This document shows, in pieces, positions 22,045 through 27,162 of a DNA stretch of 45,522 nucleotides; position 1 is the first letter of the stretch, and each line of letters opens with the position of its first letter. The DNA is from Candidatus Methanomethylophilaceae archaeon (lineage in GTDB: Archaea > Thermoplasmatota > Thermoplasmata > Methanomassiliicoccales > Methanomethylophilaceae): contig CALULN010000009.1 of assembly GCA_944321505.1 (NCBI GenBank), positions 1 to 45,522 on the forward strand, given 5' to 3'. Below the pieces are notes generated by a model, which saw only the letters and a program-made list of their open reading frames with translations, made no database searches and had not been told where the DNA came from. The translations under genes and the position numbers were made by a program.

Positions 22045-23112
22045 CTACCAACCGTACCTGAAGGTGATGAGGCACCCTATGTACATGGGGATATATTTTG
22101 GATGGCGGAGGGATGCGCATATCCCAGAAAGCCACAGGCTGCGGAACCTCCCGACGGGCGCCGCCATCTTGGCAAGCTCCCCGTCCGTCATTGATGCCAG
22201 TGAATCGTGCAGTTCCGAGAACCTGCGGGACGAGAGGATGCATCTGCGCCACCATCTTCCGTATGCGCCCTTCCTGCCGGATATGATGGCATGTGCGCAT
22301 TCCTGTCCGGACAGCAGCGCCGCGCTCAGCCCTCCGAAGCAGACGGGGTTGGCCATCCCCGCCGCATCGCCGCATAGGAATGCGTTATCGTCCTCGATGA
22401 CAGGCACGCTTCCGCAGGGGATGATCCTGCCACCGGATTGGATCCATCCTCCTGGTTCGGATGCCCCGGGGAGAGACCCGGTGTTGCAGCGGTCGCCGGA
22501 GGGGAACACCCATCTGTACGCACCGCGGTAACTCTCGGACAGCTCCAGTTCGAAGCGGTCCGGAACCGTTTCGGGAGTGATGAACTCCCTGGCGGGGACC
22601 ATGTACCTCGGCTCGGAGCCGAAGAGGCATCTCCTCACGACGGAGAAGGCTCCGTCGCATCCTATGACGTGGGTAAACGTCCTTACGGCGCCGTCGGAGA
22701 GGGACACTTCGAATCCGCCTTCGGCTCTCACGACGGATACCACCCTTCCATGGACGAATGAGCAGCCCAGCGAGGCGCAGAGCTCCCTGGTCCGGCGGAG
22801 GAACGACGGGCGGTCGATGACGGCTCCGTCGATCCCGATGCTGACGTCAGTCCCTCCCGGGAATCTGATCAAAGCTTCCGGGACGGTGTTCAGGATGTCC
22901 GATTCCCGCAGGTATCTGAGTTTGCGGAACGTGCAGCGGCTGATTCCCGCTCCGCACACAGTGTGATACCTGCCGTATCCGGCTTCGGAGAGCCTGTCGA
23001 ACACCGTGGCCTTCACGCCGTTGGACGCCAGGGCGATTGCCGCCGAGAGACCTGCCGGTCCCGAGCCGATGACTGCCACGTCCGCTTCCATGGGTGGGTG
23101 AACGCGTTTCAT
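22045..23112 (-). CDS. Geranylgeranyl reductase-family FAD-dependent protein
   Basis: A 355-residue flavoprotein. The Rossmann FAD motif VIGSGPAGLSAA has glycines at 16, 18 and 21, and a second FAD motif FLCGDAAGMANPVCFGG lies near residue 265. The CGAGIS stretch (about 52-57) corresponds to the active-site cysteine region of geranylgeranyl reductases, which saturate archaeal lipid chains. Whether lipid is the substrate here is unproven; at least one such gene is expected per archaeon and paralogues are common. ATG 23112 has GGGGAAG upstream and overlaps the transposase-like stop (ATGA); ATG 23091 is the usual family start but lacks a ribosome-binding site. The stop is TAG. Confidence 0.85.
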   Translation of the reverse strand: MKRVHPPMEADVAVIGSGPAGLSAAIALASNGVKATVFDRLSEAGYGRYHTVCGAGISRCTFRKLRYLRESDILNTVPEALIRFPGGTDVSIGIDGAVIDRPSFLRRTRELCASLGCSFVHGRVVSVVRAEGGFEVSLSDGAVRTFTHVIGCDGAFSVVRRCLFGSEPRYMVPAREFITPETVPDRFELELSESYRGAYRWVFPSGDRCNTGSLPGASEPGGWIQSGGRIIPCGSVPVIEDDNAFLCGDAAGMANPVCFGGLSAALLSGQECAHAIISGRKGAYGRWWRRCILSSRRFSELHDSLASMTDGELAKMAAPVGRFRSLWLSGICASLRHPKYIPMYIGCLITFRYGW

Positions 23113-24632
23113 GGGATACGTCTTCCCCTCAGCCGGGAGTACTCCGACCTGATGTCCAGCCCCAGTGCCTCTATCGCCGCGGATGCCGCGCTCCCCGGAT
23201 CGGTGTACGACGCCGAACCCGAAGGCCTCACCACCGCGCCGGCCGATTCCAGAGAGCGCATCATCCCTTCGGCATCCGCATCCTTGGAGAGCCCGCAGGA
23301 TGCCAGCTCGGAGTGGAGGCGGTGCATGATCGCCATGGCTACGAACTGCAGGAAGAGCCTGGCTTCCAGGCGGTGGGACAGGTAGAGCTTGAGGTCCAGC
23401 TGGTCGGTGCGGTTCTTCAGGTCGTCGAACCTCTCCTCCGCCCACCTGTGCATCATGTGCACCGACAGCGCCTCCTCCGGGTCCCTGATTCCCCTGGAGG
23501 CCAGGACCAGGAACCCTGCCATCTCGCTGTGCCTCATGACGGCATCGCTGTTAGGCTCCACCTTCGGCTGCCCGTCCTCTTCGGTGATTATGAAGTACCT
23601 CTCGTACATCCATCTGTGCGAGTGCTCCCATCTGTCGTTCAGGAGCTCCTCGCGGCAGATGTCGATGAGTTCCAGGAACGATCCCATCTCCATCTCGGCG
23701 TTCTCTGCGCTGTGGTATACATGGAGATGCACTTTCTTCCCCCCGATGAACCTCACTGCGGTGTGGATGTGCCTGTGCCCCCTGCTCCGCTCCAGCCCTT
23801 CCGAGCCGGATGGGGAGGCCCTTGCCTCAGCCACAGCATCCGCGTGAATCGGTTCGGACTGCGGGATCCTCACAACGAAGTCCCTGTCGGAAGCCGTCAT
23901 CCCCGTCAGCGCACCGCTGTCGGCGAGGCAGCTGTCCGATGAGAACAGGATCCTCCTGCATCCCATCCATCCGAGCCTGTCGGTGATGATCTCCAGGTCG
24001 GAATCCCTCTCAGGACGCAGCGGCAGGCGTTCCAGGAACACGGGCGCTCCCGTCTCGGCGTCGATGCAGAGGCCCATGCACATGCTCTGCACGGTGTCAT
24101 CGCCTCCCTGGCGGAACCATTCCCGCGGGTCGTAGCTCTGCAGGGATTCCAGGATCAGGTACCTTATATCGGAGCAGTCGAAGCGCTTCCTCCAGATCCT
24201 GTAGAACGAGTCTATGCCGTCCCTGTCCAGCATCGAAACCAGTGATACCGCGGGTGGAGAAGGGTCCGTAGGGTCCATGCCGTATGGGTCGGGCGGAAGC
24301 ATGGACAGGGGGTCGCGGTCCCTTATGATGTGCTCCGCAGCCCTGAGTATCTGCTCCCATCTGTCGGAGAAGCAGATCTGGAGGATGCCTGTCAGTCCCG
24401 ATCCGTCGGACATCCTGCGGATGAGCGTGCGGGGCCCCAGCTCCACGTATTTGAGCCCCGGCCCTTTGGTCCTGGAGCGGTTGGGGACGATCTCCCCGGT
24501 CTCCGGGTCCACATGTCCGATGCATTTCCTGACGTTCCTCATCACGCCCGTGGAAGGGTCCGCCTCCCTGGAGTTTGAGTACACGTAGACCTTGCCGGAA
24601 TCCTTGTTCCTGAGATAGACTATCGAACTCAA
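23109..24632 (-). CDS. IS1634-like transposase relative, possibly domesticated
   Basis: A 507-residue protein. The start SSIVYLRNKDSGKVYVY and RKCIGHVDPETGEIVP at about 33-48 are typical of IS1634/IS4-group DDE transposases, and the glutamate helix HRWAEERFDDLK is present. The usual first Asp (in a YDxTS-like strand) appears as Glu in YLILESLQSY, and the second motif reads SSDSCLAD instead of DRGF, so activity is doubtful. TTG 24632 gives the family N-terminus; the frame opens at TTG 24659. I see no terminal inverted repeats around the gene. Its stop overlaps the reductase start, making it the head of a three-gene unit. A perfect palindrome covers its promoter. Confidence 0.75.
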   Translation of the reverse strand: MSSIVYLRNKDSGKVYVYSNSREADPSTGVMRNVRKCIGHVDPETGEIVPNRSRTKGPGLKYVELGPRTLIRRMSDGSGLTGILQICFSDRWEQILRAAEHIIRDRDPLSMLPPDPYGMDPTDPSPPAVSLVSMLDRDGIDSFYRIWRKRFDCSDIRYLILESLQSYDPREWFRQGGDDTVQSMCMGLCIDAETGAPVFLERLPLRPERDSDLEIITDRLGWMGCRRILFSSDSCLADSGALTGMTASDRDFVVRIPQSEPIHADAVAEARASPSGSEGLERSRGHRHIHTAVRFIGGKKVHLHVYHSAENAEMEMGSFLELIDICREELLNDRWEHSHRWMYERYFIITEEDGQPKVEPNSDAVMRHSEMAGFLVLASRGIRDPEEALSVHMMHRWAEERFDDLKNRTDQLDLKLYLSHRLEARLFLQFVAMAIMHRLHSELASCGLSKDADAEGMMRSLESAGAVVRPSGSASYTDPGSAASAAIEALGLDIRSEYSRLRGRRIP

Positions 24633-24636
24633 CGTA

Positions 24637-24659
24637 TTGTATAATGATTCATTATACAA
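24637..24659. promoter_or_regulatory. Perfect 23-bp palindrome on the transposase-like gene promoter
   Basis: The arms TTGTATAATGA (24637-24647) and TCATTATACAA (24649-24659) are exact complements around a single T. The minus-strand TATA (near 24650-24656) lies in the right arm, about 22 bp from TTG 24632, so a protein bound here would block transcription. Confidence 0.65.
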
Positions 24660-24980
24660 AAAACTTTATGATTATACATATGCTGTGCACTGCTTATCAC
24701 AAAGAAATCTTTAAAAACCGAATGAATAAGAGGCACGCACCTGCATCTGCGGTCCGTTCTATAATAATATAATATTGATAAGCGGAGGGTGAACGGGGTT
24801 GGATGATATGATCCTATGGATGTTGCAATCCTTCCCTTTACGGTTGATAATAGAAAACTTGAAATATATTATCAACCGAAAACGTACAGTTCGGATTCGT
24901 GATGTTATATATCCGAACCAATCGGATGACATAATCAGCCGCTGCGGGCCCCCGGAGGCCCCGAGGCATAGGTGAAGAAG
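24660..24980. promoter_or_regulatory. Long regulatory intergenic region upstream of mtaCB
   Basis: There is no convincing gene in these 321 bp. CTTTAAAAACC (24709-24719) is a plus-strand TATA-like box far upstream. CGGTTGATAAT (24841-24851) and ATTATCAACCG (24868-24878) form a perfect inverted repeat. GTTCGGAT (24889-24896) and ATCCGAAC (24911-24918) form a second one with the TATA-like GTTATATAT (24904-24912) in its loop. This predicts a start near 24934 and a 45-nt leader with a small GGGCC/GGCCC hairpin. AGGTGA (24970-24975) is the ribosome-binding site for ATG 24981. Confidence 0.6.
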
Positions 24981-25763
24981 ATGATAGACATCTCGAAGAT
25001 CGACTACAGCACCATCCTCAGGCGCTACGACGCCGAGGCTGAGAACATGGACAGCCCCGAGGCTGTCGCTGCGAAGATGCTGCCGTCCGACCCCGTGCTC
25101 AGCGAGGTCGCCAGCGCAGTCCTCTACATGAAGTTCAAGGAGATCGGACCCGTCGTCAAGAAGGCCCTTGAGTCCAAGGAGCCTCTGGACATCATCAACA
25201 ACGGTCTGGTCGCCGGAATGGAGATCGTCAGCCACCTGTACGCTGCCCATGTCTACTACCTGCCCGAGATCATGATGGCCGCGAAGGTCATGGAGGTCGG
25301 AATCTCCATCGCCGAGAAGCAGATCCCCGGCGGAAGGACCACCAAGGGAACCGTCGTCATGCACGCCGCAGAGGGCGACCCCCACGACATCGGAAAGAAC
25401 ATCGCAGCCGTCATGATGAGGTCCTCCGGATTCACCGTCGTGGACCTCGGAAAGGATGTGGCCGTGGACGACGTCGTCGACGCAGTGAAGGAGAACAAGC
25501 CCTTCCTGGTCACCGGCACCGCCCTCATGACCACCACCATGACCGCGTTCCCCTCCGGCGCCAAGAAGCTCCAGGAGGCAGGAATCAACATCCCGTACAT
25601 GGCAGCCGGAGGCGCCGTGAACAGGGACTTCGCAGAGTCCTTCGACCTCGGAATCTACTCCGAGAAGGCTCCGCAGACACCCCCCATCGCCGACAAGATC
25701 CTCGCCGGCTACGACTGGAAGAAGATCAGAGAGGAGTGGGACAGCATCGTAGGAGGCGAGTGA
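24981..25763 (+). CDS. mtaC: Methanol-specific corrinoid protein
   Basis: A 260-residue cobalamin-binding protein that accepts the methyl group from methanol via MtaB and passes it to an MtaA-type enzyme. Residues 25-120 are the helical cap domain; the Rossmann B12 domain starts near 123 with GDPHDIGKN, the DxHxxG motif (D133, H135, G138) whose histidine is the lower cobalt ligand. GTG 24972 is in frame, but it lies inside the AGGTGA ribosome-binding site, so ATG 24981 is the start. It is one base from mtaB (stop at 25763, ATG at 25765), with AGGAGG near its end serving mtaB. Confidence 0.95.
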   Translation: MIDISKIDYSTILRRYDAEAENMDSPEAVAAKMLPSDPVLSEVASAVLYMKFKEIGPVVKKALESKEPLDIINNGLVAGMEIVSHLYAAHVYYLPEIMMAAKVMEVGISIAEKQIPGGRTTKGTVVMHAAEGDPHDIGKNIAAVMMRSSGFTVVDLGKDVAVDDVVDAVKENKPFLVTGTALMTTTMTAFPSGAKKLQEAGINIPYMAAGGAVNRDFAESFDLGIYSEKAPQTPPIADKILAGYDWKKIREEWDSIVGGE

Positions 25764-25764
25764 T

Positions 25765-27162
25765 ATGGCTAAGTTCACCAAGATGGCATACGAGTCCGCA
25801 GACGACATGCTCTTCGGACACGCGAAGAAGCCCGTTTCGTACGGGCTCGGAATAAAGGTCGGAGCCGGCAGGGTCATCCCCGAGGTCAACTACGCTCCCA
25901 GGCCCGGGACTGAGAAGTCCGTCGAGAGGATCACCAAGGAGTACGTGGACTACATCTCCAAGGACGCCATCAACAGGGCGGTCACCCTGGGATTCCCCGA
26001 CCTCCAGCTGGAGACCGAGTGGGTCGCCCAGATGGGAACCGTCCCCGGCATGGGCGCATCCGTGGTCGCCGGCCAGAAGGCGATCACCGAGAAGATGCAC
26101 GACGAGTACGGCATCAACCTGGCCGTCAGGCACACAATCCCCGACCAGCGTGAGGCCGAGCACGGACTCAGGGGCGGCATGGACAAGAAGTTCGGCTACC
26201 CCGAGAAGTTCATCGAGTGCTGCGAGATCGCCTGCGAGAACGGCGCGGACGTCCTGTCCGTCGAGTCCGTCGGCGGAAAGGAGTTCGCCGACTACGCAGT
26301 CACCCACGGAGACATCACCGCCTTCCTGTTCGGCGTCGGATACCTGGGATCCATCGACATGGAGCATGTCTGGACCCAGATGGTCGACATCGCCAAGAAG
26401 AACAAGACCATCGCGGGAGGAGACACCAACTGCTCCGGAGCCAACGTTTCCATGTTCATGGCCGGAGGCATGCTGGACAACGACGTCCAGAAGACCTTCT
26501 CCGCCGTGACCAGGTGCATCTCCGCGGCCAGGACCATGGTCGCCGAGGAGGTCGGAGCCACCGGCCCCGACAAGGACTGCGGATACGAGGGAGTCATCGT
26601 CAAGTCCATCACCGGAATGCCCGCCGCCCAGGAGGGTAAGAACTGCCAGTGCGCCCACGCGGACATCCAGGGCAACCTGATGGCCCAGTGCTGCGACCTG
26701 TGGTCCAACGAGTCCGTGGAGTACCACCCCGAGTTCGGAGGATCCTCCGTCGCCTGCTGGCTCGGACCTCTGGGATACGAGTGCTCCCTGATGAACACCG
26801 CCATCGCAACCGGCAACGCCAAGACCCTCAGGGACCTGTACATGGCCTCCGACAGGGTCAGGGGACCCGAGGGATACGTCCTCGCCTACGACAACGCGTG
26901 GAAGGTCGGAAAGGCCATCACCGAGTACGGCGACAACTACTACCTCAGGGCCAAGGCCGCCGGTCTGGCCGGTGCCAACATCATCCGCGAGGGGTACGAC
27001 AAGAAGGAGCTCGTCCTCACCAAGAAGCAGCTGGACGTCCTGGATGCCATCATCAAGGAGCTGTCCGTCCTGCCCGACGACGAGGACAAGTTCTACGACT
27101 ACTGCGTCAAGAAGTACAAGGACGACGTCCCCACCTTCAACCCCAAGTCCTACGGATTCTGA
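25765..27162 (+). CDS. mtaB: Methanol:corrinoid methyltransferase
   Basis: A 465-residue zinc enzyme that cleaves the C-O bond of methanol and methylates the cobalt of MtaC, the first step of methanol-dependent methanogenesis. The N-terminus MAKFTKMAYESADDMLFGHAKK and the segments RHTIPDQREAEHG and GGDTNCSGANVSMFMAGG are typical of MtaB; the Cys in NCSGAN is one expected zinc ligand. The length matches the family. AGGAGG (25751-25756) precedes the ATG. Codon use is very uniform (GCC, GGA, AAG), as expected for a highly expressed gene. No in-frame TAG is present, in contrast to the methylamine methyltransferases. Confidence 0.97.
   Translation: MAKFTKMAYESADDMLFGHAKKPVSYGLGIKVGAGRVIPEVNYAPRPGTEKSVERITKEYVDYISKDAINRAVTLGFPDLQLETEWVAQMGTVPGMGASVVAGQKAITEKMHDEYGINLAVRHTIPDQREAEHGLRGGMDKKFGYPEKFIECCEIACENGADVLSVESVGGKEFADYAVTHGDITAFLFGVGYLGSIDMEHVWTQMVDIAKKNKTIAGGDTNCSGANVSMFMAGGMLDNDVQKTFSAVTRCISAARTMVAEEVGATGPDKDCGYEGVIVKSITGMPAAQEGKNCQCAHADIQGNLMAQCCDLWSNESVEYHPEFGGSSVACWLGPLGYECSLMNTAIATGNAKTLRDLYMASDRVRGPEGYVLAYDNAWKVGKAITEYGDNYYLRAKAAGLAGANIIREGYDKKELVLTKKQLDVLDAIIKELSVLPDDEDKFYDYCVKKYKDDVPTFNPKSYGF

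Follow-up and report, generated by a model that had tools for sequence, protein, structure and literature searches.

The analysed stretch of DNA (45,522 nt, hereafter the window) represents one contig of a draft genome of 1.385 Mb, the relatives of which are classed as Methanomethylophilaceae within the Methanomassiliicoccales; all genomes compared here are draft or metagenome assemblies. It carries mtaC, coding for the methanol corrinoid protein (24981–25763, plus strand; NCBIfam MtaC models, Pfam B12-binding domain), and mtaB, coding for the methanol:corrinoid methyltransferase (25765–27162, plus strand; Pfam PF12176, E = 3.6e-205), in agreement with the gene assignments of a preliminary description of this DNA. 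A second mtaCB copy resides on contig C14 of the same genome. The second copy is directly followed by a gene for a RACo-like corrinoid activation protein (L254:625–2244 and L255:5011–6633, both minus strand), recognized by PF14574 in the L254 copy and by sequence likeness in the L255 copy; a CobW-type GTPase gene lies next to it.

Upstream of mtaC, the preliminary description had placed two stacked inverted repeats, with the suggestion that they could be one activator site and one repressor site. The first of them, IR1 (24841–24878), was given as CGGTTGATAAT/ATTATCAACCG with a 16-nt spacer. Its position and perfect arms were confirmed, and the arms can be extended by one pair to 12 nt around a 14-nt spacer (24841–24852 and 24867–24878). 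Since arms of at least 12 nt arise in 0.2% of dinucleotide shuffles (600 shuffles of the 321-nt region 24660–24980), IR1 is beyond chance. The complete palindrome occurs once in the genome. In the closest relative (G094), the base beside the IR1 core is altered on both sides (GGTTGATA...TATCAACC in the window versus CTTGATA...TATCAAG in G094), and the symmetry is therefore retained. The 20-nt core spacing recurs in G094 and G091; the form TTGATA-N20-TATCAA is kept in both of these genomes and, with one mismatch, in G093, while G090, G092 and paralogous promoters show little or no symmetry. Throughout the genus of the window, the IR1 zone follows the pattern TTGATAATAG.AAA.TTTAAATA...TATCAA. 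A search with a 32-nt pattern of this zone (up to three mismatches) returned five matches within the genus, all of them at mtaC promoters (G000 twice, G094, G091 and G093); in other genera there were four three-mismatch matches versus three for the reversed control. IR1 is a conserved element of the mtaC promoter of relatives, its earlier assignment to the mtaCB promoter region is supported, and the idea that the motif precedes other methyltransferase genes, which the preliminary description had proposed to check, is rejected.

A gapless alignment of 25 mtaC promoters linked to the divergent gene described below revealed two TATA-like boxes 46–47 nt apart (AAA.TTTTATAA..GTTATAA for box 1 and TTTTGAGACGGGTTATAAAC for box 2), a spacing that is fixed across three genera and characterizes this class of mtaC promoter. 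In the window, box 1 is the BRE/TATA-like sequence GAAAACTTGAAATA in the IR1 spacer (24853–24866, plus strand; AAA-nTTTAAATA in relatives) and box 2 is the TATA-like GTTATATAT (24904–24912, plus strand). IR1 is box 1 plus palindromic arms that were acquired in the genus of the window. Archaeal transcription starts about 25 nt past the TATA box, and it is because of this established geometry that the position of conserved elements bears on which box is the core promoter. An A-rich stretch preceding box 1 and a TGGAT box directly upstream of it in eight loci of another genus, g10, favour box 1; the sequence AATCA(A/G)C, conserved in the genus about 27 nt past box 2, favours box 2.

The second repeat, IR2 (24889–24918), does exist where it was described, with arms GTTCGGAT/ATCCGAAC (24889–24896 and 24911–24918) and a 14-nt loop that holds most of the TATA-like stretch TTATATA (24905–24911). 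Its proposed role as a regulatory site was not borne out. Because arms of at least 8 nt arise in 13% of the same shuffles, IR2 is within chance level, and its symmetry is already gone in G094, a genome with an MtaC 97% identical to that of the window. It is probably a chance symmetry overlying box 2; we rejected it as an operator, and the division into one activator and one repressor site finds no support. The preliminary description had named the disappearance of both repeats from close relatives as one observation that would speak against it, and this was seen for IR2 and not for IR1. Closer to the gene, G+C-rich inverted stretches just 5′ of the mtaC ribosome-binding site were noticed by eye at 24940–24975 and in mtaC leaders of many relatives; a hairpin in the mtaC leader of the window was rejected, as its folding did not surpass that of shuffles (z –0.2).

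Motif discovery in 79 mtaC upstream regions yielded a different palindrome, ATGGATATAACATCCATCC, with the core TGGAT-N5-ATCCA, usually located 84–116 nt 5′ of mtaC. The strict form is present in 83 of the 102 family genomes, with a tally of more than 200 matches versus 6 for the reversed control; examples of the form TGGAT-N5-ATCCA(W)CC are found at position 1501 of L190, L203, L207 and L210. Among about 30 loci inspected, the genes downstream included mtaC and those for other small corrinoid proteins resembling methylamine ones and for CbiD-like proteins (names read from sequence). Of the 62 promoters not classed as transposase-linked, 50 carry the box at its usual place; it also occurs in 9 of the 27 transposase-linked ones, there mostly about 30 nt further upstream. 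It is likely a methyltransferase regulon box in most of the family; no description of it was found in the literature searched. The mtaC promoter of the window has no proper copy, only two degenerate GGAT-N6-ATCC repeats (24801–24814 and 24818–24831) that score weakly against the profile (12.6 and 6.7 bits), are unconserved in the genus and are possibly remnants of the family box. Both this box and IR1 are palindromes in mtaC promoters, and they differ in sequence.

In Methanosarcina, mtaCB is controlled by Msr regulators (PMC11619418). The Msr-type domain PF08350 was found in none of the 102 family genomes, while the Methanosarcina acetivorans control was positive. An Msr-type regulator of the window's mtaCB is thus rejected, and any mtaCB regulation here therefore needs another kind of factor.

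The preliminary account of the promoter holds for the genes and for IR1; it overlooked a divergent gene and the palindromic element that is best conserved in this intergenic region. The gene (23109–24632, minus strand), whose start is probably TTG at 24632 (peptide M-SSIVYLRNKDSG), codes for a protein of about 507 aa related to IS1634-type transposases (NCBIfam IS1634, E = 3.6e-22). With this model, the window protein scores 79 bits and its relative G092a 68 bits, below the 100-bit cut-off, and G091b scores 139 bits. When the 102 family genomes were searched, nearly all strong matches turned out to lie directly head-to-head with mtaC. Such divergent pairs were found at 27 loci, distributed over three genera and 22 genomes (10 loci in g1, the genus of the window, 15 in g10 and 2 in g12), and a 28th pair, in G093, is truncated by the contig end. 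The two genes are 240–284 nt apart at the 15 loci of g10 and 333–337 nt apart in g12. The pairing persists where protein identity has fallen to about 25%, and it involves two different MtaC lineages. A profile search of 147 genomes of the order set the mtaC-linked clade (363–745 bits, with one fragment at 186 bits) apart from other IS1634 relatives (up to 130 bits). Most mtaC copies of the family have no such partner. In genus g5 (G005, G006 and G007; L292–L294), the transposase-like gene lies near mtaCB in a rearranged order that is not divergent. At locus L298 (G062:C105), mtaC groups in the tree with the transposase-linked g10 copies, with no transposase-like gene found within about 3 kb upstream, which may reflect loss of the partner.

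The overlooked palindromic element is an array of three half-sites (24637–24680) at the start of the transposase-like gene: TTGTATAAT (24637–24645), ATTATACAA (24651–24659) and ATTATACATA (24671–24680). The arrangement TTGTATAAT-N5-ATTATACAA-N11-ATTATACATA, or a close form of it, lies directly upstream of the gene start in nearly all pairs, with half-site spacings of 13–15 and 20–21 nt. The pattern GTATAAN{5,9}TTATACAN{11,15}TTATACA gave 25 matches in 23 of the 102 family genomes (24639–24678 in the window; one match from G093, with the truncated partner), all in the intergenic region between the transposase-like gene and mtaC; the reversed control gave none. We consider the array the presumed operator of the transposase-like gene. 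A single half-site is left upstream of mtaC in G005. Derivation of the array from known IS ends was rejected: in the only multicopy IS1634 relative that was inspected, the terminal repeats (CTGAAATTCTCGGAT...) do not resemble the array.

The mtaC-linked proteins resemble the IS1634 family (IS4 superfamily) of DDE transposases in sequence and overall fold, and depart from it in several respects. The first catalytic Asp is replaced in all linked members, which breaks the DDE triad of an active IS1634 element, while it is intact in the IS relatives G094IS1, G094IS2, G012IS and G037IS. The second catalytic residue is variable in the linked members (Asp in some); g10 has lost the third, which is Glu in some members of g1 and g12. 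No array half-sites were found in the 80–415 nt past the stop codon at paired loci with available sequence; half-sites lie upstream of the gene only, with no right-hand counterpart of the kind that a pair of terminal repeats would provide. Apart from a few exceptions, strong matches are sited at mtaC rather than at multiple unrelated places; each linked locus has a single copy, with a fixed genomic partner. A true mobile IS1634 relative in G012, by comparison, is present in three copies of 99.8–100% identity with clear terminal repeats. The dN/dS ratio is 0.31 between the window gene and that of G094, and ranges from 0.04 to 0.31 across nine pairs of transposase-like genes. On these residue patterns, the protein is probably catalytically dead, and the combination of conserved place, loss of catalytic residues and purifying selection is that of a domesticated transposase. 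Conservation peaks in the N-terminal 52 residues, where 21 of 52 columns reach at least 90% identity, compared with 29 of 459. An AlphaFold (AF2) model (pLDDT 80.6, pTM 0.76) places a small N-terminal beta sheet ahead of the transposase core, and we infer that this sheet may bind DNA. Among solved structures, the closest in fold are complexes of Tn5 transposase and the inhibitor of Tn5 (1b7e among the matches), with modest query TM-scores of 0.32–0.36.

Taken together, mtaCB and a domesticated, probably dead IS1634-type transposase would have a divergent control region of about 350 nt in common, which holds both repeats. The transposase-derived protein most likely retains ancestral DNA binding without cutting; it would bind the array of three half-sites next to the start of its gene, leading to autoregulation, and from this fixed place about 300 nt off mtaC it would help to set mtaCB expression, perhaps alongside a second factor at IR1/box 1. 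We assign this reading a probability of roughly 0.55, with DNA binding, autoregulation and the effect on mtaCB, including its sign, all being putative. Points that weigh against it are the many mtaC copies without such a partner, the non-divergent arrangement in g5, and the Glu and Asp that some members retain at the third and second catalytic columns. A more far-reaching statement, that a dead DDE transposase now serves in archaea as a dedicated transcription factor, controlling methanol methyltransferase genes through a three-half-site operator, is offered tentatively, at somewhat below even odds.

These observations could also be accommodated, with lower probability, if IR1 were the operator of a dimeric regulator overlapping the mtaC core promoter at box 1, and the transposase-like gene controlled only itself via the array. 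Near mtaC, including at IR1 and box 1, no recurrence of the array half-site was found (median p 0.48), so there is no sequence sign of the same protein at either element, and IR1 itself is above chance, restricted to the genus, specific to mtaC and kept symmetrical by the compensating change in G094. Such an operator would be hard to reconcile with the weak or missing symmetry in G090, G092 and paralogous promoters; no regulator gene was identified, and it would be left unexplained why array, gene and two-box promoter are so strictly linked.

A second objection is that both genes could simply be co-inherited neighbours. The transposase-like gene would then do an unrelated job, such as DNA maintenance or keeping related IS elements in check, and lie beside mtaC by shared ancestry, with the palindromes being ordinary promoter elements. 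The linked loci are indeed partly near-copies that the MtaC tree puts in two main clusters, and Tn5 provides a precedent of a transposase-derived inhibitor of similar fold. However, linkage holds at identities as low as those given above and at near-constant spacing, and the array is absent from the one true mobile IS relative examined. Since the pairing spans two separate MtaC lineages, pure accident appears unlikely, though co-inheritance of the neighbours may still account for it; we regard an unrelated job as improbable. That IR1 and IR2 are RNA hairpins in a long mtaC leader made from an upstream promoter is very improbable: the RNA fold of IR1 is a good one (–14.4 kcal/mol, z –5.7) and IR2 would be transcribed if box 1 is the core promoter, but the conserved part of IR1 extends beyond the stem to the BRE/TATA-like spacer, and IR2 is unconserved.

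In the literature searched, we found hardly any description of methanol-use control outside Methanosarcina, nothing relevant on IS1634 or on mtaC promoters in Methanomassiliicoccales, and no transposase-derived regulators of the cut-and-paste (DDE) type in prokaryotes. A parallel is provided by TldR, a group of nuclease-dead, TnpB-derived, RNA-guided repressors, as outlined in PMC13418256 (citing Wiegand 2024). As in TldR, a transposon enzyme without catalysis, with a presumed DNA-binding role retained, is linked to a host gene; unlike TldR, which is of the TnpB/RuvC type, the window protein belongs to the DDE/RNase H class, is archaeal, has no known guide RNA and has a putative regulatory role. 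A DDE-derived regulator would, if confirmed, parallel the nuclease-dead TnpB repressors. It would serve the same task, mtaCB control, as Msr proteins do in Methanosarcina (PMC11619418).

The analysis provides a candidate mtaCB regulator with its likely operator, as well as a second, family-wide TGGAT-N5-ATCCA box, both of which are directly testable. If the proposed reading is true, a dead DDE transposase controls the step by which methanol enters methane formation in a family that lacks Msr-type regulators, and this gut methane-producing archaeon likely has a home-made gene switch at its methanol-use genes.
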